This document shows positions 5,878 to 18,459 of a stretch of DNA of 23,264 nucleotides, piece by piece. The stretch is taken from IMG/VR virus record IMGVR_UViG_3300034012_002414, positions 1 through 23,264 of that record; one strand, 5' to 3'. Each line of letters begins with the position of its first letter. Within the stretch, counting starts at the first letter, position 1. The DNA comes from a virus. The translations under genes and the position numbers were made by a program. The notes under the pieces were generated by a model. That model made no database searches and had not been told where the DNA came from. It saw nothing but the letters and a program-made list of their open reading frames with translations.

Positions 5878-6960
5878 TTATCCAACGGGCTCCATTAACG
5901 CTAGCACGTTTAGTACAGGCGTTCTAAATATACCCATGAAGTAGTCATTCACACCCATGGACATCACTAGTTCTTCGTCATCAACAAAACAACCAAAAGG
6001 CAGTATGCAAGCCGGTTGATTTGAAATGTCGTTTCCGACTGGATCTGTCCACGTGACAAGATCATCGTTTGTCGAACCTATGAATAAAGGCTCATCAGTC
6101 ATACGAGTGATCTTTGTTAAGTCTTTGTCTAAACAATATGCACCTAGTGCATAGACTAAATAGGGCCTGCGGTCTAGTTCATGACACATAAATTTCCAGT
6201 GGTAGAAAACAAGCCACTCGTCTTCTACAAGAACTGGAGCGGTTGAGTTAAAGGTCGGGTGGTCTGAGGTGACCTTTTTCAAGCAATCTGAGTTAATTGT
6301 CTTATCAGGCTGGTTTGGTGTCTTGATTACGATCGGTTTAGTCGAATAAAGCAATCGAAGATCAGGGCCGTCTGAAAAGAAGCACCAGTTTTTTTCTGCT
6401 CTTCCGTCAGCGTGGTTATTCCCTATAGGCGGGTAGAACTTATCAACTAAGCTTCCAAATTCATTCACAACCCCGGTACATACTTTGGGGCTCTTACACA
6501 TTTTGTGCTTAGTCGCATCCCATTTAGTTGCGTATGTGCTTGTTACAAACTGACAAAGTAAATTATCGTCTGGAGAAATAAAGATTCTCGGGTCCTCATA
6601 ACTTAGTTTATGGGGTGTGTTAATAAGTTTTCGAGGAGCAACAATAGTGTCGTCAGTAAGAAGTTGACCAATCCAGATATCTGTAGGTGTGTTGTTATAG
6701 TAAAAATATTTCATATCGTGCCTAAACACAAAATGTTCTGGCTGTGATCGCCACGCAATTAAAGTTGCCCCACGGTGCTTAATAACGCAAGGACTAAAGT
6801 TAGCAAAGCTATCTTTTGGCAGTCCTGAGTTTATGCGTGTAAACACACCTCCAATCTCGTGGGCCTGATCAAAAACTGAAGGGAAACCAGATTTACTCGG
6901 TGTGAATGCACGCTGAATGACTCGATTGTTGTACGTGCGATAGCGATGAAATTGTGTCAC
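5878..6960 (-). CDS. Five-bladed beta-propeller glycosidase/phosphorylase-like protein (GH130-like)
   Basis: A 360-residue protein. YEDPRIF (121-127) and EKNW (189-192) are the kind of conserved blades seen in GH130 and related GH43/GH32-type propellers, which cleave or phosphorolyse beta-mannosides and related glycans. Further propeller-like strands occur at FSPCVIKHRGATLIAWR and near the C-terminus. No signal peptide is present. The start is GTG, chosen because it forms a GTGA overlap with the stop of the GT4 gene just upstream on the same strand; the two form one transcription unit. A role in trimming or building the same glycan as the GT4 enzyme is inferred. The GH130 label rests on short motifs and overall length only. 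Confidence 0.65.
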   Translation of the reverse strand: MTQFHRYRTYNNRVIQRAFTPSKSGFPSVFDQAHEIGGVFTRINSGLPKDSFANFSPCVIKHRGATLIAWRSQPEHFVFRHDMKYFYYNNTPTDIWIGQLLTDDTIVAPRKLINTPHKLSYEDPRIFISPDDNLLCQFVTSTYATKWDATKHKMCKSPKVCTGVVNEFGSLVDKFYPPIGNNHADGRAEKNWCFFSDGPDLRLLYSTKPIVIKTPNQPDKTINSDCLKKVTSDHPTFNSTAPVLVEDEWLVFYHWKFMCHELDRRPYLVYALGAYCLDKDLTKITRMTDEPLFIGSTNDDLVTWTDPVGNDISNQPACILPFGCFVDDEELVMSMGVNDYFMGIFRTPVLNVLALMEPVG

Positions 6961-8129
6961 TTGCTCAGCTCCTCCATTGCTTTGTTAAAGGCTTCAGCGA
7001 TTCGATCCCAGCGGTACGCAGGGTTTTGTGTGACTTTATAGCAGGACTCAGCGATGTCGTCGTAGAAACCTTTGTCCTCGTACAACTTAGTAAGCATGGC
7101 TGCCATATCCATCACGTCTACGATTCCTCGCTCGACTCCTAGATCCTTGTCATAAATCCAAGCAGCTATATCCGCTAAGAGAGCACTCTTCTTCCAGATG
7201 TCACTGAATGACGTGTGGTTTGGCAGTACAAGTGGTTTTTTGCAGGAAGCGTGTTCAAAAGACACAAGACCCCACCCTTCTCCATTTGCTGTATTAATTC
7301 CGACGTCACAGGCATTATAGATTTTATTTAGTAGATCATCAGGAGGTGCGTTTGTGTAATCAATATTCGTTGATGTCATTACGAGGCGCCCATCAGCTTG
7401 AAGTCCTTTCCGCTTCATCTCTGTGTCAAAAATTGCCCTGACGTCCCAACCGAGATCTTTTTCACTCATGTGTAGATACAGGAGCGTGTTCGGTTTATCG
7501 ACGGCAAATTCTGCAAACGCCTTGATCGTTAGATCAATTTGCTTGCGAGGTTGGTTACGGTTGGCGTTAAGGACAATAAATTTATCTTCCGGCAGTCTCA
7601 ACATTCGTCGAGCTTCGTTTTGATCCATTGGGAAAAACTTCCCTTGATCCAGACCGTGCGGCACTACGCCAAATAATTTTGGTTGAACCCCTTGAGACAT
7701 CAAACGATGTGCTTGTTCAACAGAGAAGGTGATCGCAAAGTCCCAGTCCTTGATATATGACAACATAGAATTAACATAATATGCTGAGTCAACTGGAAAG
7801 TACGCTATGAACTTGAATTTAAGTGAGTCTTTGAGCAGGTGCACCCGCTCCCAAACTTGATTAACGATCCAGATGTCGTTAAGACAGATAATAAAGTCAG
7901 GTTTTTCTTCTTCAACCACCCGTGGCAGGCGACCGATACCAAAGCGATCGCCAGGGTTCTGTGTCCCAGCCGGGTAAACTTTATATGGTAGATCGTGCGG
8001 ATCACCTGCGTAGTTAATGCCAAACACTACAATTTCATGTGTGTTAGCTAGGTGCTCTAAGATACTGTGTGTAACTCTAGCGAAACCAGTATTAGAAAGA
8101 ATGTCGCCGTACCAGAGAATTTTTGCCAT
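6957..8129 (-). CDS. Glycosyltransferase family 4-like (GT-B fold)
   Basis: A 390-residue protein with GT-B architecture. The N-terminal Rossmann domain begins AKILWYGDILSNTGFARV, where SNTGFARV resembles the acceptor-side glycine loop. The linker PHGLD (157-161) precedes the donor domain. Conserved donor-site features are NANRNQPRKQ (188-197) and GEGWGLVSFEHASCKKP (283-299), which contains the E-x7-E pair (E284 and E292) of retaining GT4 enzymes. No membrane segment is seen. It leads a two-gene minus-strand unit with the GH130-like gene, divergent from the terminase. The sugar donor and target cannot be read from sequence; modification of virion proteins or host glycans are both possible. 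Confidence 0.88.
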   Translation of the reverse strand: MAKILWYGDILSNTGFARVTHSILEHLANTHEIVVFGINYAGDPHDLPYKVYPAGTQNPGDRFGIGRLPRVVEEEKPDFIICLNDIWIVNQVWERVHLLKDSLKFKFIAYFPVDSAYYVNSMLSYIKDWDFAITFSVEQAHRLMSQGVQPKLFGVVPHGLDQGKFFPMDQNEARRMLRLPEDKFIVLNANRNQPRKQIDLTIKAFAEFAVDKPNTLLYLHMSEKDLGWDVRAIFDTEMKRKGLQADGRLVMTSTNIDYTNAPPDDLLNKIYNACDVGINTANGEGWGLVSFEHASCKKPLVLPNHTSFSDIWKKSALLADIAAWIYDKDLGVERGIVDVMDMAAMLTKLYEDKGFYDDIAESCYKVTQNPAYRWDRIAEAFNKAMEELSK

Positions 8130-8177: not shown

Positions 8178-9701
8178 ATGCCGAGTAGAGAAACTTTTGC
8201 ATATCGTCGTGCACTTAAGCTACGTGCAGCAAAGGCTATAGACGGAGAGAGTGCTGCGATTGATAATATCTTTTTAAGAGCTTCTGATGACTTCCATACG
8301 TTCTGTACGATTATGGATAAGGCGCCGGCCACCCACATGCTTGAGTGGCATAAGCACTTAATTACTGGTGAAAGCAACAGGTACTTACTGGATATCGCTG
8401 GTCCCAATTTAGATATCCTTGCGCCCAGGGGTAGCGCAAAGAGCACAGTACTTAATATGTTTACTGCTTGGATTATTGGAAGACATACAACAGCAGGTTT
8501 ACCTCTTCAGATTATTTACTGTTCATATAACATCGCCACGGCCATACCAAAGAGTCGGATTATTAAGCAGATTATCGACTCATCTACATACCGGAAAATT
8601 TTTCCGAAAGTTCAGCTCCGCTCTGGTATGCAGTCGGATATTGGTTGGAGTATTGATTTTGATTATGCAGGCATTAGCCGTGTGGGTGACGAAGAATTTA
8701 CGCTTCGTGCAGCAGGCCTTCGAGGCTCTATTACATCAAAACGTGCTCATCTTGTTATCGTAGATGACCCTATCAAGTCTAGTACTGATATTAAGAACCC
8801 TACTATTAGAGAAGAAATGAATAATAACTGGAGCTCTGTGATCGCCCCGATTATTTTTGAAGGTGGTCGAGCTATTTGCTTAGGCACCCGATTCCACCCA
8901 CTAGATATCCATAAAACGATGTTTGTTCCCGATAAGGGGTGGAAACAAGTTCAGCAGGAGGCCCTTACTTACGATGACGACGGGGAGCCTGTGAGCTATT
9001 GGCCAGAACAATGGTCTGTTGATTACTTGCTAGGTCAGAAAGAACTTGACCCTGTTGCTTTTGCTTTCCAGTATCAGCAACAACCTGTAATGACATCGGA
9101 TTTAGTCCTATCTCCAGATCTACTTGTTAAAGGGGATGTGGTTACAGAGTTCGACAGCCTCGCAGTAGGCATCGACTTATCGGCTAGTAAAAACGAGACT
9201 TCTGATTACACTGCGTTTGTACTCGGCGGTAGATTAAAGGATAAATACTATATTATTGACGCTCATCAGGTGCGCTCTATCGGTAACCTTGAGAAGATAG
9301 ACCTTCTATGCAAAATGCTTGTTGAGTGGGGCATCTTGCAAGAAGATAATGATGGTAAATACTTTCCGACCTACTCCACTTGCTCACTAGTCGTCGAGTC
9401 CGTGGCTTACCAAGCATCCCTAGCCGCTGACCTTAGACGTGTGATGCTTAACGAATGGGGGCTGGGTAATCTTCATATTCACGAAGTCAAAGGCTTTCGA
9501 GGCGATAAGATCTCCAGATTTAGAGGCACTCTTGGGCTTTTGGAAAATAAAAAAGTCGTATTCAACCGCTATCGAAAGTTCGATATTTTATTCGATCAGC
9601 TGATCAACATAGGTGCTACTTCGCACGACGACTTACTAGACGCTTATACGCACTTAGTATGCTTCTTACAGCGTCGCGGAAACTTTGAGATGGAGTACTG
9701 A
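8178..9701 (+). CDS. Terminase large subunit
   Basis: A 507-residue DNA-packaging motor. The ATPase domain has a Walker A motif APRGSAKST (82-90), a Walker B strand LVIVDD (192-197) and a coupling motif CLGTRFH (234-240). The C-terminal RNase H-like nuclease shows the metal-binding acidic residues: D333 in VGIDLSAS, E407 in SLVVESVAY and D484/D485 in HDDLLDAY. Length and domain order are normal for the family. The enzyme docks on the portal, pumps DNA into the prohead and cuts concatemers. I see no small terminase subunit in the window. Start chosen at the ATG following AGAAGAAC. Its last base is the first base of the next gene's ATG (TGATG). Confidence 0.95.
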   Translation: MPSRETFAYRRALKLRAAKAIDGESAAIDNIFLRASDDFHTFCTIMDKAPATHMLEWHKHLITGESNRYLLDIAGPNLDILAPRGSAKSTVLNMFTAWIIGRHTTAGLPLQIIYCSYNIATAIPKSRIIKQIIDSSTYRKIFPKVQLRSGMQSDIGWSIDFDYAGISRVGDEEFTLRAAGLRGSITSKRAHLVIVDDPIKSSTDIKNPTIREEMNNNWSSVIAPIIFEGGRAICLGTRFHPLDIHKTMFVPDKGWKQVQQEALTYDDDGEPVSYWPEQWSVDYLLGQKELDPVAFAFQYQQQPVMTSDLVLSPDLLVKGDVVTEFDSLAVGIDLSASKNETSDYTAFVLGGRLKDKYYIIDAHQVRSIGNLEKIDLLCKMLVEWGILQEDNDGKYFPTYSTCSLVVESVAYQASLAADLRRVMLNEWGLGNLHIHEVKGFRGDKISRFRGTLGLLENKKVVFNRYRKFDILFDQLINIGATSHDDLLDAYTHLVCFLQRRGNFEMEY

Positions 9702-11504: not shown

Positions 11505-12320
11505 GTGCTCTTAGACTGTTTTACTTACTTTAATGAGCGTGAGCTGCTTGAGCTTCGAATTCGGACTCTTGAAGATTACGTTGACGGATTTTTAATTACA
11601 GATGCAAATCGAACTCACGCCACAGGTGAGTTAAAGCCTTTCACGTGTTTAGAAACTATTCGTGAGCTTGGGCTGCCTGAAGAAAAAATTCAAGTTATGC
11701 ACGTAGAGCTGCCCTCTATGGAGGAAGCTCCGGATCCTTGGATTCGTGAAAGGGGCCAGAGGGACGCACTAGGCGTGGGTCTTCACCTGATGGATGACGA
11801 TGATATCTTTATCTGTTCTGATTGCGATGAAATTACAAACCCTAGTAAGTTACCTGACGTAATTGAAGCTGTACGTGAGCATAAGGATAAAGTAGTTCGT
11901 CTTTCGATGTCGATGCACTACGGGAGGGCTGATCGACAACTTGTATCGCCAGAAGGTGAGTTATTTGACTGGCGTTGCGGCGTAGTGAGCACAGTGGGAC
12001 AACTTAAGGATTTTGGTACGTTGTCTTCTATGCGCTCTACACAAAATAATTTTTATGTAGGCAGTCGAGACGCAGGCTGGCATTTCTCGTGGATGGGCGA
12101 TTCGGATAGACGTCTAACAAAACTGAAATCTATTGCCGAAGCTTACATTTGGGATCGGCCAGAGGTTCAAGAACTATGTAAAGAGTTCGAGCCTGATGAG
12201 GGTAATACAGACATGCTGGGGCGACCAGACCATTTAATTACCTCCTACCCTGTCGAGGATTTACCCGAGGAAGCGGTTAAACTGGAAAGAGTTAGAAAGT
12301 ATTTGCTTCCGGATGGCTAA
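11505..12320 (+). CDS. Glycosyltransferase family 17-like
   Basis: A 271-residue protein. The N-terminus DCFTYFNERELLELRIRTL (4-22) and FLITDANRTHATG (29-41) match the GT17 pattern (relatives of beta-1,4-GlcNAc transferase III, also found in phages and large viruses). DDDDIFICSDCDEI (97-110) supplies the DxD metal site, D106-C-D108-E109. RMSMHYGRAD-like and HFSWMG regions follow in the second half. The GTG start is chosen because the family motif begins at residue 4. The end of the gene overlaps a small basic ORF whose ATG is at 12313. GlcNAc transfer is the family's known activity; the acceptor here is unknown. Confidence 0.82.
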   Translation: MLLDCFTYFNERELLELRIRTLEDYVDGFLITDANRTHATGELKPFTCLETIRELGLPEEKIQVMHVELPSMEEAPDPWIRERGQRDALGVGLHLMDDDDIFICSDCDEITNPSKLPDVIEAVREHKDKVVRLSMSMHYGRADRQLVSPEGELFDWRCGVVSTVGQLKDFGTLSSMRSTQNNFYVGSRDAGWHFSWMGDSDRRLTKLKSIAEAYIWDRPEVQELCKEFEPDEGNTDMLGRPDHLITSYPVEDLPEEAVKLERVRKYLLPDG

Positions 12321-12506: not shown

Positions 12507-14732
12507 ATGTCCAGCTCGATTGAAACTAGGAAAAGATTCACCGAGATCTTAGAGGCGTCTCGTACTCAAGATCGGAGCAACCAGTCATCGACTATGGTTG
12601 TTCTGAGTCATTTGCAGCAGATGACCCTTTTGATGATCAAAAAGGGTCTTGCTTTTTACTGTGATCAAGACACTTTTAAGAGCCGCACTAAGTTCTTAGA
12701 AGACATTATTGCTTTAAACAAATTAGACATTCGTTTCCCTGCGATTATTCGCAACTTTTTGATCGATGGTTGCGGGTTGTTTTATTTTCGACCAGATCCA
12801 AAACTTAAATATCAGATTTATTTCTTTAATAAAAATCAATATCGTGTCTATCACGACGTAAATGGTAACGTTGAAGAGGTTGTAATTGTCTATAGCTATA
12901 AAATCAAGAACGCTAATTTAGGTTTACCTAGTAATAGTTACGGGCAGAACAAACGCTACGTTCGGCTAACCATTACAGCTGATGAAATCAGCGAAGTTGA
13001 GACTGATACTGAGCTGAGTTTTGACTTAGAGCCTGGTGCTGTCCTAACTCCGACAAAAAAGAGGCAAAACACACTTGGTTTTATCCCGGCAGTTGAGGTT
13101 TTAAACAAACCGAACGCTAGCGGTACGGAAGGTGAGGGCGAATTTGACCCATTTATGGAGCAGATCGTTCTTCACGATCAGCTGACTCGTAATATTGCGA
13201 AAAATATTGAGTTTTTTGGCAACCCGACCTTAATTAGTTCGCGCCCACGAAGCGATCTGGTCGAAGCGAACGACGCTCAGGGCAATTTCCGGCCAACAAT
13301 CAGCAGCCAATCTGGTTTTGCTGGTGTCGACAGTCCTTCGACTCGTGTCAGTGAGCCTTTTGGCGCTGGTATGGGTTCTGGTTTGCGCGTTCCGCGAATT
13401 ATCGCCAACGTCGAGCCATCGGATCGCGTGGGTTACATGACCCCGGACCCCGTTAATGGGGATATGAACCGGTATACGCTTCTTCTTCGCGAAGAAATTC
13501 GTACCGCGTTAGGTGGAGTTGACGAAATATCAATTTCTGCTGGCGCCACCGCAACAGAAATCAAAGGTTTGATGGGTCGTGCTCAAGCTACGGCTTTACG
13601 GAAGAACAAGAGTTTCCTGACTTACGGTTTTAACCGTTTGCTGGAGATGATGATTTATCACCAAGAAGTTATTTTCCGTGAGTCGTTTATTGCTGCAGCA
13701 GGGCTTAAAGAACCCAAACCTCCGACTGAAGAAACGGAAGAAAGTCTGCAGAAATATCAGACTTCTTTAGCTAAGTTTGAGTCGAAAGTTACTCAGTCTA
13801 TTCAACTTGCGCTACAGGAGAATAAAGTTCCTCCCGGAGTTATAGGGCTACCGGAAGATGGGGATCGTACTGTAACTTACAGGTATCAAGGTGATGTTTA
13901 CGAAGACACTGCCTACGACATAAACCAAAAGTCTATTGTCGTCCGTAACTTACAAGAACTCGGTGTGGATAGCATCGAAGCTCTTAAGTTCCTGTTTCCT
14001 GAAAAGACTGATTCTGAAAGAGCCGAAATGCTGAAGGGCTTCCCCTTCCGTATGGTTCAACAAACACAATCAGCAATGCAACAATTTCTGGTATTATTAA
14101 GCCAGATGTTGCAGTCTCCGCATCCTCTTGCGCCTAATCAGCCTCTTGCAGCTGATCCTAGACTGAATATCACTCCGCTCCTTTACAGGACATTCGACCA
14201 CCTCGCGGAAGAACTAACTTACTCGGGTAGCTATGAGCCAGCAGATCCAAGCTTCGACCCCGAGCCCGGTCTCCCCGGCGGCAGCCCCGGCGGTAATTTC
14301 GGACCAGGGCTCAACCGCCTACCCGCAATGGGTGGCGCAAACCTCTACCCCGGCGGTAGCTTCGGTTCCTACAGCCCAACCGCCGTCGCAGGTGGCACCG
14401 GCTTCGGTCCCTTCTACCAACAACCAGTACAACCAGTTAACGTCGCAGTCCTCCCCCAGCAATCCCTGGGAAGCAGCGATGGGTACCCTGGAACGGGTAC
14501 TGTCCCAGGTCAATTCGCAATCCCTCAACCAGGTTCCGTCGTCTCCTTACCAGACAATTTCGGAACCGGCTACTCAACTGAGCAGTCAGAATTTACAGGC
14601 CCAACCCTGGGCTTACCAGGCACCCCAGGTAGCGCAGACCTTGCCTACCAGCGTCTCACCGACCCAAACTTCCTCGCCGATTTCTACGGCCCCGCAAACG
14701 AGCGTAAGCCCCGTAACCGCCGAGGTCGTTAA
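12507..14732 (+). CDS. Portal protein with long Pro/Gly-rich C-terminal extension
   Basis: A 741-residue portal candidate. Residues about 1-570 have the helical and beta composition of a portal core, with the wing/stem-like region IKGLMGRAQATALRKNKSFL and a central EIRTALGGVDEISIS segment. The position after terminase and before scaffold and capsid supports the call. From about residue 575 the protein turns into a Pro/Gly/Ser-rich extension ending in a basic tail (ANERKPRNRRGR). This extension, from 14233 onward, overlaps the scaffold-like gene in the +1 frame. The codons of the extension are C-ending and regular (GGC, TTC, TAC, AAC), so this frame looks genuinely coding. Portal oligomers form the DNA entry channel and docking site for terminase. 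Confidence 0.78.
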   Translation: MSSSIETRKRFTEILEASRTQDRSNQSSTMVVLSHLQQMTLLMIKKGLAFYCDQDTFKSRTKFLEDIIALNKLDIRFPAIIRNFLIDGCGLFYFRPDPKLKYQIYFFNKNQYRVYHDVNGNVEEVVIVYSYKIKNANLGLPSNSYGQNKRYVRLTITADEISEVETDTELSFDLEPGAVLTPTKKRQNTLGFIPAVEVLNKPNASGTEGEGEFDPFMEQIVLHDQLTRNIAKNIEFFGNPTLISSRPRSDLVEANDAQGNFRPTISSQSGFAGVDSPSTRVSEPFGAGMGSGLRVPRIIANVEPSDRVGYMTPDPVNGDMNRYTLLLREEIRTALGGVDEISISAGATATEIKGLMGRAQATALRKNKSFLTYGFNRLLEMMIYHQEVIFRESFIAAAGLKEPKPPTEETEESLQKYQTSLAKFESKVTQSIQLALQENKVPPGVIGLPEDGDRTVTYRYQGDVYEDTAYDINQKSIVVRNLQELGVDSIEALKFLFPEKTDSERAEMLKGFPFRMVQQTQSAMQQFLVLLSQMLQSPHPLAPNQPLAADPRLNITPLLYRTFDHLAEELTYSGSYEPADPSFDPEPGLPGGSPGGNFGPGLNRLPAMGGANLYPGGSFGSYSPTAVAGGTGFGPFYQQPVQPVNVAVLPQQSLGSSDGYPGTGTVPGQFAIPQPGSVVSLPDNFGTGYSTEQSEFTGPTLGLPGTPGSADLAYQRLTDPNFLADFYGPANERKPRNRRGR

Positions 14733-15156
14733 TCATTTCGGTATTGAAGCTCCTGGCATTCTGAATCAGTACGCCTGCTCTCTTGAGGATCTCCTCATGG
14801 AGCAAGCTCAGCAGATGGATGCTCTTTCTGCTCGCCATGATGCGATGCAGACCATCCTGACTGATGCGAATCACCTGGCCGAATACACTGATCGTTATTT
14901 CACCGAAGTGGTCCCCGTGGATATTGACGGCGACACTCAGGTGTACCAGGGTCAGCAACAGGCTTACCAGCCTCGTTATGACATGCCTGCTCCTCCTGCT
15001 AATGCTGGCGGCTCCAACACTGGTGCTCAGCCTCAACAGCAGTGGGAGCAGTTCAGCGATGTCATGAACCGCAACCCTGAAAACGCTTGGCGTTATCTGA
15101 GTCAGATGGGTCCCGAAGCTATGCGCAGCAAGCTTCTGTTTATGGATCCTGCTTGA
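14233..15156 (+). CDS. Scaffold-like protein, 5' half overlapping the portal gene
   Basis: A 307-residue protein if started at ATG 14233. Residues 1-160 are Pro/Ser/Gln/Thr-rich and disordered and lie inside the portal frame. Residues about 160-220 (PVTAEVVNHFG, then LEDLLMEQAQQMDALSARHDAMQ) form helices. After a Gln/Pro-rich linker comes a short helical C-terminus, NPENAWRYLSQMGPEAMRSK. Disorder, Gln richness, a helical coat-binding-like tail and position between portal and capsid suggest a scaffolding protein. An internal start at ATG 14479 has a better Shine-Dalgarno (GGGAAG at 14468-14473) and would give 225 residues, still overlapping portal by 254 bases. The frame is closed by a stop at 14215, so no readthrough from farther upstream. 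A strong terminator follows at 15181. Confidence 0.7.
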   Translation: MSQQIQASTPSPVSPAAAPAVISDQGSTAYPQWVAQTSTPAVASVPTAQPPSQVAPASVPSTNNQYNQLTSQSSPSNPWEAAMGTLERVLSQVNSQSLNQVPSSPYQTISEPATQLSSQNLQAQPWAYQAPQVAQTLPTSVSPTQTSSPISTAPQTSVSPVTAEVVNHFGIEAPGILNQYACSLEDLLMEQAQQMDALSARHDAMQTILTDANHLAEYTDRYFTEVVPVDIDGDTQVYQGQQQAYQPRYDMPAPPANAGGSNTGAQPQQQWEQFSDVMNRNPENAWRYLSQMGPEAMRSKLLFMDPA

Positions 15157-15180
15157 TAGGTTAGGAAAGCAAGAGGATTA

Positions 15181-15204
15181 GCCCTCAATTTTGAGGGCTT
15201 TTTT
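15181..15204 (+). terminator. Rho-independent terminator after the scaffold-like gene
   Basis: GCCCTCA (15181-15187) pairs with TGAGGGC (15192-15198) around ATTT, followed by six T (15199-15204). This is a canonical intrinsic terminator closing the portal/scaffold transcript. Confidence 0.9.
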
Positions 15205-15763: not shown

Positions 15764-16567
15764 ATGGTGTATACACCGCAAACTAATTGGAAATACGATA
15801 AAAACTTATATCACCCGATTCAGTCCGGCCCTCAGCGCACTGGAGACAATTTAAATCTAACAAATACGTATTTAACAATTTCTAGCGGGTATGTAACACC
15901 TTCTGGAATTAATCAAACTTGGTACGGTGTTTTAGATGAAGGTGCTGATTTTGGCTTAATCCCTGTTGGCCCTCCGAACTTAAGCGGCTACTTCACTACT
16001 GACTGGAAGGCAGTTCCGCCGGCTCCGTCTGGTTATTGGACAAACTATGAGAACGTACTGCCCCACAGCTCTGGTTTACTAGATACATATGTAGGTTTCA
16101 GAGCGCAAGGTTTGTACCGTGTCGCAAATGCGACAGTACAGACTGCTTATGGGCCTCGACCAGGGCTGCGTAACTTCGGTACGCATATTTGGTACGGAGA
16201 ACAGATTCCTGATAATCAAAACTATGACCCGTTTAAAACACCTAGTTCTAACGACAGCAGTCTCGACGGCGGAGGAATAACCGGGGGTGGCGTAACCCAC
16301 CCTGCAACTCGCTCACCTACTCTCACCAACCCAACAAACGACACTTCAGGATCACGTGCCGCGTGGGTTTACCATTATCCGATTTATTGCCAGTCGTTTA
16401 CTGAAACTCGGTACACAGGTGTTCCTGGCCAGATGGGTATACCGGTGCGGAATAGTTATCGCGGCAAGTCACTTCGTTACGTCCCTAACTACGGTTCTGT
16501 ATACGGTGTACTTGGAGAAGGTGTGCGTAACATGGTGCGTACGTTTAGTCCTGGGACAAAGATTTAA
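15764..16567 (+). CDS. Putative structural protein, 267 aa
   Basis: No family recognised. The protein is rich in Tyr, Pro, Gly, Asn and Thr with almost no long helices, suggesting a beta-structured virion protein such as a decoration, fibre or minor capsid component. A Gly-rich linker occurs around residues 168-177 (DGGGITGGGVTHP). The ATG has GGAG upstream. The stop TAA at 16565-16567 interlocks with the stop of the antisense endonuclease gene (16564-16566), leaving no intergenic space. It lies between scaffold and capsid genes, consistent with a head role. Confidence 0.6.
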   Translation: MVYTPQTNWKYDKNLYHPIQSGPQRTGDNLNLTNTYLTISSGYVTPSGINQTWYGVLDEGADFGLIPVGPPNLSGYFTTDWKAVPPAPSGYWTNYENVLPHSSGLLDTYVGFRAQGLYRVANATVQTAYGPRPGLRNFGTHIWYGEQIPDNQNYDPFKTPSSNDSSLDGGGITGGGVTHPATRSPTLTNPTNDTSGSRAAWVYHYPIYCQSFTETRYTGVPGQMGIPVRNSYRGKSLRYVPNYGSVYGVLGEGVRNMVRTFSPGTKI

Positions 16568-17025
16568 ATGTGAGTCCAGGTGCGTCTTTGGAGGATGTTG
16601 TTAATCGATTGCCTAGAAGTATCGAGCTCCTGCGCAATTAGAGGAGCTCGATAGTACTTAGGGTGCGCCCCTTCCTGCAGAGCTCTTAGACAGAGTACTT
16701 GCTCTTCATTCAGCTTTGCTTTTGCGTTTTTCTCTCCTCGTAGGACCTCTGACGAGCTTTCTGAACGTGGTATCCAGGAAACATTTCCTGGCTCGTAATC
16801 ACCCGTATCCCCTTTCCTCGACAGAGAGGTTCCTACAGGCGCCTCACCCATGTCGTTATAAAAGTTCTCAAAACACTCTAACCACTCATTACACACCTTT
16901 ACCCCCTTGTTTCCATAGTATTTATAGTTAGCAGCGTTTTTGTTATAGCACCTTGTTTTCATGTCCATCCAGGCTTTATAGGTTTGTGTATTGGACAGAC
17001 CGTGTTTTTTATTGAAGCGAGCCAT
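16564..17025 (-). CDS. Free-standing homing endonuclease, HNH-type family
   Basis: A 153-residue protein from ATG 17025 (a GTG two codons upstream at 17031 is also possible). The N-terminal 90 residues follow the layout of phage HNH-like homing nucleases: YKAWMDMKTRCYNKNAANYKYYGNKGVKVCNEW, shown here as its landmarks YKAW, RCYN, YYGNKG and CNEW. A degenerate core LSRKGDTGDYEPGNVSWI replaces the usual DR-x-D...N motif. Residues about 110-150 form a helix-turn-helix (LIAQELDTSRQSINNILQ), the usual DNA-binding tail. The gene is antisense to its neighbours and sits just upstream of a group I intron in the capsid gene, outside the intron. It may cut intron-less capsid alleles. Confidence 0.8.
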   Translation of the reverse strand: MARFNKKHGLSNTQTYKAWMDMKTRCYNKNAANYKYYGNKGVKVCNEWLECFENFYNDMGEAPVGTSLSRKGDTGDYEPGNVSWIPRSESSSEVLRGEKNAKAKLNEEQVLCLRALQEGAHPKYYRAPLIAQELDTSRQSINNILQRRTWTHI

Positions 17026-17110
17026 AACCACTAAGACTGCGACAACACTCTAGCCCACAGGAGTCCTTAAGGTTTATATTTGAGAAGTACTTTCTCCTCG
17101 GAACTTATCG

Positions 17111-18459
17111 ATGTTTATCGATAGCTGAATGCTCAGATTGTCGCCTAGTTAAGCAATTAACTAGTGAAAATCGGGTGAATTCAGGGAAGCCCTAACGTAG
17201 AGACGAGGGTAATCCTGAGCGAAGCCAAAGGTACACCTTTGGAACGTGCAGAGACTACCGGAGAGGTTTAGCCCTCTTAATAACCGGCTAGAGCGCCCGA
17301 CACCCCACGTGGGTGAAGAGATAGTCCAGACCTCGGGGAAACCTGAGACAATCTGAATGACTTTCCGAAGATTTTAGGTGCGGAGCTGTACCGTCCTCAT
17401 CCGGCGTATATCGTCGAGATGGCGGCTGAGCCCGTGGTTGTTCACGACTTCTCGAAACAACCCGGCCAGACTGTGCAGCTGGACCGTTACCGCTTCTTCG
17501 GTAATCCTGGCTCTAAGGAATCCCGCGAGCGTACTGCTGAGCAGACCATTGGTACTGCCAACAGCCGCAATATCGTGAAGGATAAGGTGCTGGTGACTCT
17601 TCGCGAGTACACCGGTCCTGCTGACCCGAGTGATCCCACTCAGCCCAGCACCTTCAAGATTGCGCGTGAGACCCTGATTACCGCCCAGCGTCTGCTGCTG
17701 GACACCGGTAACCTCACCACCTTCCACCAATCCATCGGCAGCCTGACTCTGCTCGACGACTATCGTCGTTGGCGCGACCGGGTGTTCATCAACGAACTTC
17801 TGAAGGCTGTTTCCAAGGGTCAGGCTTCTGACACCCAAGGCGGTTACTACTTCCCTGGTGATCTCGCCACCGGTGCTCTGACCTACACCAACGCCGAGCA
17901 AGCTAAGTTCGACGTTAAGGATGACCTGCTGCGCGTGGTGAAGAGCCTGCGTAAGCGGAACACTCCTACCTTCCAAGATGGTTTCTATCGCTGCGTTTGC
18001 GATCCGACCTTCCTGATGCACCTGCGTCAGAACAGCGACTTCCGTGAAGTTGCTCGTTATCCTGGCAACGGGCAGATCAACCCCCTCATGTCCGGTATGC
18101 AGCCCAACGCTGCACTGTACATGGGTCAAGGCTTCGGTCAGGCTACCTTCGTGGCCGGCGAGCCGATCATGCCCACCGGCTTCGTGTTTGAAGGCGTGCG
18201 CTTCTTCGAAAGCACCAACATGCCTACTCAAACTCAGAGCGCGACCATCGCCTCCAGCACCGCTAACTACAACGCTGCTGTCGGTATCTTCTTCGGTCCT
18301 CAGGCCGTTGGTGTTGGCATCGGTGGCAACAATGCCCAGGTGCTCCTCAACAACAACGACGATTTCAGCCGCTTTATCATGATGATTTGGAGCCTGTACG
18401 CAGGTTTCGAACTCCTGAACGCTGACTTCGTCACCGTTGGTTACTCTTTCGACGCTTGA
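17111..18459 (+). CDS. Major capsid protein, split by a group I intron (join 17111..17122, 17350..18459)
   Basis: The long frame from 17350 to 18459 has no adequate start: the reading MAAEP at 17419 is preceded in frame by LNDFPKILGAELYRPHPAY, which looks coding, and the frame closes at a stop at 17344-17346. Joining ATG TTT ATC GAT (17111-17122) to AAT at 17350 gives MFIDNLNDFPKILG and a 373-residue product. The protein is helical then beta-rich, with a VCDPTFLMHLRQ strand and a late EGVRFFEST-GIFFGPQAVGVGIG region, resembling HK97-fold coats of the N4gp56/P22 kind. C-ending codons dominate, as in a very highly expressed gene. A possible GGAA Shine-Dalgarno lies at 17100-17103. Family assignment is by resemblance; the split is argued from RNA structure. 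Confidence 0.75.
17123..17349 (+). ncRNA. Group I self-splicing intron (IA-like), in the capsid gene
   Basis: The group I core can be drawn completely. P1: 17119-17122 with 17140-17143, plus a stem 17125-17128/17133-17136. P2: 17146-17152/17157-17163 with a GCAA loop. P3: 17171-17176/17295-17300. P4: 17181-17185/17214-17218. P5: 17189-17193/17206-17210. P6a: 17225-17231/17236-17242. P7: 17253-17257/17322-17326, with an extra hairpin pair (17262-17266/17273-17277) typical of IA introns. P8: 17301-17305/17311-17315. P9: 17332-17337/17342-17347 with a GAAA loop. The guide CAGATT (17134-17139) pairs with the start of exon 2 (AATCTG, 17350-17355) as P10. It carries no ORF. Exact ends are uncertain by two bases (17121-17347 is the alternative). 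Confidence 0.88.

Follow-up and report, generated by a model that had tools for sequence, protein, structure and literature searches.

Whether two head-assembly genes of a virus can both be encoded, in different frames, by the same half kilobase of DNA is the question raised by the locus analysed here. In the window (that is, the whole stretch of DNA that was analysed, a 23,264-base virus record), two open reading frames (ORFs), 12507-14732 (741 amino acids) and 14233-15156 (307 amino acids), share exactly 500 nt, with the second at +1 to the first, which confirms the overlap of portal and scaffold-like genes in different frames that an earlier note on this DNA had described (Table 1). We consider it highly probable that this is a genuine out-of-frame overlap of two head-assembly genes; that both are translated, that the second protein is a scaffold and that the two tails have roles in assembly we infer from the evidence set out below. 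Half a kilobase would thus be double-coded, through at least five lineages, by two genes on which head assembly normally depends, and the overlap would be well suited as a natural test of how disorder in protein tails allows double coding.

The head module of the window is ordered as large terminase (8178-9701), portal, 307-amino-acid protein and major capsid protein (MCP; 17419-18459 plus a short first exon). The portal identity of the first ORF is supported by its sequence family (phrog_20475, E = 9e-164; phrog_64 (portal), E = 2e-6) and by a fold search with a structure model of low mean confidence, for which the best matches were portal proteins, T7 gp8 among them (Z up to 11.1 over ~250 residues). 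The final core helix of this model spans residues 556-572, past which pLDDT is mostly 25-40; the predicted fold stops at residue 572, where the overlap begins, and the overlap probably encodes a disordered portal tail (residues 576-741), in which the motif Gx[AP]DL is present in most loci.

The identity of the 307-amino-acid protein as a probable scaffold is based on gene order and predicted architecture, as no significant match was found in PHROGs, Pfam or PDB sequences. Its model (mean pLDDT 45, that is, low) is disordered to approximately residue 159 save for one helix at an NPW motif, followed by helices at residues 160-223 and 267-303, with a C-terminus predicted, at low confidence, to form a helical bundle. 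The alignments behind the structure models left out the GenBank row of S-EIV1. Given the lack of a match to any scaffold family and the low confidence of the model, the double-coded protein could instead have a different place in the head or virion, such as that of an ejected or a head-completion protein, yet we regard this as unlikely because the gene is placed between the portal and MCP genes, because a disordered arm, a helical body and a C-terminal helical bundle are predicted and because, among the ORFs listed between portal and capsid, this one alone looks helical or disordered.

Table 1 Features of the overlapping portal and probable scaffold genes and their surroundings in the window.
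Feature	Position	Strand	Basis
Portal gene, 741 amino acids, folded core to approximately residue 572, then disordered Gly/Pro-rich tail	12507-14732	+	PHROG, fold matches, model
Predicted hairpin inside the portal gene, where synonymous change is suppressed ahead of the second start	14077-14113	+	Folding prediction, without covariation support
In-frame stop (14215-14217) and ATG start (14233-14235) of the second gene	14215-14235	+	Start and stop contexts
Probable scaffolding protein gene, 307 amino acids, frame +1 relative to the portal	14233-15156	+	Open and conserved in all intact relatives; architecture
Double-coded overlap, 500 nt	14233-14732	+	Synonymous suppression in both frames, OLGenie-type ratios, recoding nulls
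Scaffold-frame NPW motif and predicted helix (residues 77-94; helix 78-94)	14461-14514	+	Conserved residues, model
Internal ATG, proposed alternative start; probably an ordinary Met codon	14479-14481	+	Not conserved outside the window clade
Portal-frame GxADL motif (residues 708-712) and predicted short helix (711-727)	14628-14687	+	G708, D711 and P720 invariant in clades A-C
Portal basic C-terminus (residues 731-741)	14697-14729	+	Final 20 residues with at least 5 K/R in every locus of clades A-C
Terminator-like stem-loop past the second gene	15180-15199	+	Consensus scan only; number found not above shuffles

The viruses that carry the overlap form a widespread, mostly uncultured group with kinship to a cyanobacterial phage, S-EIV1; among isolates, similarity in the portal (43%) or capsid (68.5%) was detectable for this Synechococcus phage alone. 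From the hundreds of relatives in the viral collection we sampled three clades, A (that of the window, L001-L080), B (that of S-EIV1, L081-L161) and C (L279-L358), to which contigs in metagenome-assembled genomes (MAGs) add lineages D (L410, L414, L415) and E (L413, L416). Portal identity is ~45-50% between clades A-C (clade C being ~50% identical to both A and B) and ~45-60% across the five lineages, and the +1 frame is open in every intact locus examined (clades A-C, lineages D and E, S-EIV1). The overlap, of which clades A-C provide 169 distinct sequences, is mostly 467-680 nt long across relatives: 488-515 nt in clade A, 554-635 nt in clade B, mostly 467-521 nt in clade C, 488-677 nt in other loci from the pattern scan and roughly 490-530 nt in lineages D and E. 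In three candidate counter-examples with a broken overlap (L173, L250 and L300/L403, the last being one contig), the portal frame is disrupted as well; we therefore discounted them, and they look like assembly or sequence errors. The relatives found as MAG contigs (L407-L416) lie in genomes labelled Euryarchaeota, Bacteroidetes, Crocinitomicaceae and Blastopirellula, with which these virus contigs were probably mis-binned. As regards which frame is the older, scans of viral contigs, genome contigs and a phage collection found no portal without the overlap, and RSCU codon usage gave conflicting answers among clades.

Open frames of this length are not readily produced by chance. When the portal tail was recoded synonymously with portal-core codon usage and +1 stops were counted, the recoded tails held on average 2.7-3.6 stops in the +1 frame and only 1.4% (window clade A) or 5.2% (S-EIV1 clade B) were stop-free, whereas all 44 + 44 of the real de-replicated sequences are; in the reverse recoding, of the second frame, the portal frame was never left open. 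For six representatives of the five lineages the product is 5.5e-10 if they are treated as independent, a figure that makes too much of independence, given the common ancestry of the lineages. Outside the overlap, the longest portal stretch without a +1 stop is 111-138 codons, with an average of 67-77.

Substitution patterns in clades A, B and C (44 de-replicated sequences each), a check that the earlier note had proposed for related phages, reveal synonymous suppression in both frames in all three clades. Synonymous variation is normal over most of the length of the portal core; inside the overlap, synonymous change is 0.39 (A), 0.30 (B) and 0.46 (C) of expectation in the portal frame and 0.35 (A), 0.46 (B) and 0.47 (C) in the second frame, and the third-position share of portal-frame substitutions falls from 0.64-0.70 to 0.31-0.43. 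Ratios of the dN/dS type, calculated with our own implementation built as in OLGenie (PMC7531306), are likewise low in the overlap for the portal (dNN/dSN: A, 0.30 (0.22-0.40); B, 0.52 (0.37-0.70); C, 0.54 (0.44-0.64)) and for the second frame (dNN/dNS: A, 0.42 (0.31-0.55); B, 0.26 (0.20-0.34); C, 0.52 (0.43-0.65)), against 0.77 (A), 0.78 (B) and 0.86 (C) in a same-frame control (that is, the +1 frame of the portal core). Constraint is seen in both halves of the overlap, the second-frame ratios for the 5' half being 0.32, 0.18 and 0.46 in the three clades. In clade B, a further control comprising the 150 nt upstream of the start, which are non-coding in +1, also gave 0.34; as non-coding constraint can lower the ratio, it is not proof by itself and other lines of evidence are needed. 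Taken together, the sequence comparisons show purifying selection on both frames of the overlap in several deep lineages.

The two frames have their strongest motifs in different places. Conservation at 14449-14472 is 0.37 in the portal frame versus 0.68 in the scaffold frame and at 14617-14640 it is 0.68 versus 0.25, although overall there is no correlation between the frames in conservation (r = -0.06). Within the scaffold frame, P78, W79 and A82 are invariant among the aligned members of clades A-C, and lineage E has NPY in place of NPW. Disordered tails would tolerate double coding because codons for A/P/S/T/Q read largely as G/S/P/A/T/R in the other frame, and because each frame has its strongest motif opposite a poorly conserved part of the other. 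K/R residues are few in the overlap. The substitution patterns in three clades and the structure models bear out the earlier suggestion that disordered, low-complexity tails are what is double-coded.

The start signals of the second frame are conserved as well. In the window, the open +1 frame begins at 14218, and the first ATG in it lies 15 nt past the in-frame stop. The clade A start is an ATG in 44/44 sequences, within TAT-GA and with no strong Shine-Dalgarno sequence (SD), and by protein alignment lies 12 nt further on than that of clade B, in which the portal codons CAA AAG GAG ATG AGT TAT GCA hold AAGGAG, 7 nt and ATG; this SD and ATG are invariant (21 aligned sequences; start contexts 44/44). 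An in-frame stop precedes the ATG by 18 nt (A) or 6 nt (B) in the loci listed; a few clade A loci are without it, and there the frame is open further upstream. Lineage D has GTG at the homologous start position with GGAG upstream. A few members of clade C (L353-L355, L357, L412) are without the ATG, the portal there reading YSGQY versus YAGQY, and this peptide together with AGTGGACAA (in two of them) suggests that a GTG lies one codon on in the second frame.

The earlier note had also proposed a start at 14479 that would shorten the overlap to 254 bases. This ATG with its upstream GGGAAG is retained, at the same distance, by most members of the window clade and could serve as a secondary start; as the sole start, in an otherwise real case of double coding, it is disfavoured and in our judgement very improbable, given that second-frame constraint extends to the 5' half of the overlap (see above), that the NPW motif with its invariant PW and other conserved residues lie upstream of it, that the Met is absent from the other clades and that clade B has its SD and ATG at the upstream start. 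Ribosomal frameshifting to a portal-scaffold fusion, also or instead, could be productive anywhere in 500 nt of overlapping frames, yet we give it hardly any credence, as the conserved start codon, the SD before it in clades B and D and the nearby upstream in-frame stop speak for independent initiation and against a frameshift.

From 50-80 codons ahead of the second start, synonymous change is already constrained in clades A and B, and weakly in C, that is, in DNA that encodes only the portal, and predicted RNA folding there is stronger than in codon-permuted controls in all three clades (mean z ~-2). It might be argued from this that only the portal is translated through 14233-14732, that the constraint comes from a structured RNA or from a signal in the DNA or RNA, and that the second gene starts after 14732. 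We see next to no chance of this, as the length variants keep both frames open, stops are absent from every intact sequence, second-frame amino-acid motifs are conserved at 30-35% identity between clades and substitutions are redistributed over codon positions; constraint on both frames contradicts the alternative, likewise raised in the earlier note, of a single constrained frame or a scaffold start past the portal stop. An RNA element that controls scaffold initiation nevertheless is possible. Constraint and predicted structure coincide at 14060-14232, where the hairpin loop of the window clade holds the invariant TGGTATTATTA, which occurs in exactly one copy in the window, with near-matches not above chance. 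Two-sided changes were seen in 0/48 pairs (window clade) and 2/58 pairs (S-EIV1 clade), the sequences being too similar for a covariation signal, and no sigma-70 promoter was found near the second start.

We propose that some ribosomes would read the portal gene to its stop at 14732, producing a core to residue ~572 and a flexible Gly/Pro-rich tail of ~166 residues that ends in the GxADL motif and a basic patch, and that other ribosomes, by a separate initiation at 14233, would read the shifted frame of this mRNA and make the scaffolding protein. In the latter, an arm rich in Ser, Gln, Pro and Ala (residues 1-166) would be flexible apart from a single short helix at NPWxxAF; after it would come a helical body and, at the C-terminus, a bundle of helices for which binding to the capsid protein is expected. 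Possible roles of the tails include contacts of the portal with scaffold or DNA while the procapsid assembles. We also offer, as a conjecture that is more likely wrong than right by a wide measure, that the overlap is functional and not just tolerated: the co-encoded tails might touch in the procapsid, and internal initiation tuned by RNA structure might couple scaffold output to portal translation and help to nucleate each shell on one portal.

Out-of-frame overlaps in tailed dsDNA phages usually measure a few bases. In lambda, Nu3 is comparable in that a head scaffold is encoded within a neighbouring head gene, but it has both the frame and the sequence of C; Rz/Rz1 is an out-of-frame nesting in a tailed phage, but Rz1 is a lysis gene. 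Same-strand out-of-frame overlaps of viruses (reviewed in PMC8227390) resemble the present case in their shifted frame and disordered products; +1 overlaps in reference viruses have a median of 14 nt (IQR 8-26) (PMC8903798) and 84% of the overlaps in viruses are shorter than 50 nt (PMC7017920). The olg genes of phage Fc02 (PMC9936078) are same-strand alternate-frame overlapping ORFs of a tailed phage, although they belong to a superinfection-exclusion region rather than head assembly and their starts are only 25 nt apart. No earlier report of an out-of-frame portal/scaffold overlap was found in the openly accessible literature searched, and we regard portal/scaffold as a new pairing within a known kind of arrangement, here an out-of-frame overlap of great length and deep conservation in a tailed dsDNA phage.

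The head module of S-EIV1 (KJ410740) has the same gene order and a homologous 554-nt overlap with the second frame open and conserved, but in its record the second gene is annotated only from after the portal stop (59863-60264), at ~40% of its length, and the overlap is not described. Prodigal allows a maximum same-strand overlap of 60 bp (PMC2848648), and therefore such pairs can be cut or missed by standard annotation; the shortened S-EIV1 gene, whatever program annotated it, is consistent with this limit. Elsewhere in the same genome (L081; KJ410740 60784-62010), a capsid-like frame without a stop (60934-61986, plus strand) is annotated as a minus-strand CDS and a partial plus-strand CDS, and the large terminase (L081:2541-5081; KJ410740 54080-56620) contains an intein splicing domain (PF14890, E = 1e-11) that the window terminase is without.

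Several further features of the window were observed around the two genes. The gap from scaffold to capsid is ~680 nt longer than in many relatives. A group I intron (RF00028, E = 2e-21; region 17111-17355, intron ~17123-17355) appears to interrupt the major capsid gene past its fourth codon, as MFID (17111-17122) joins NDFPKILG (from 17356) to give the N-terminus that is uninterrupted in intron-free relatives. Beside the intron, a minus-strand ORF of 155 amino acids (16564-17031), with no Pfam match, looks like an HNH-type homing endonuclease. Several carbohydrate genes surround the head module (551-1321, 5878-8129 and 11505-12320), with matches to glycosyltransferase families 2, 1 and 17 among them and one weak match of the glycosyl hydrolase 130 type.
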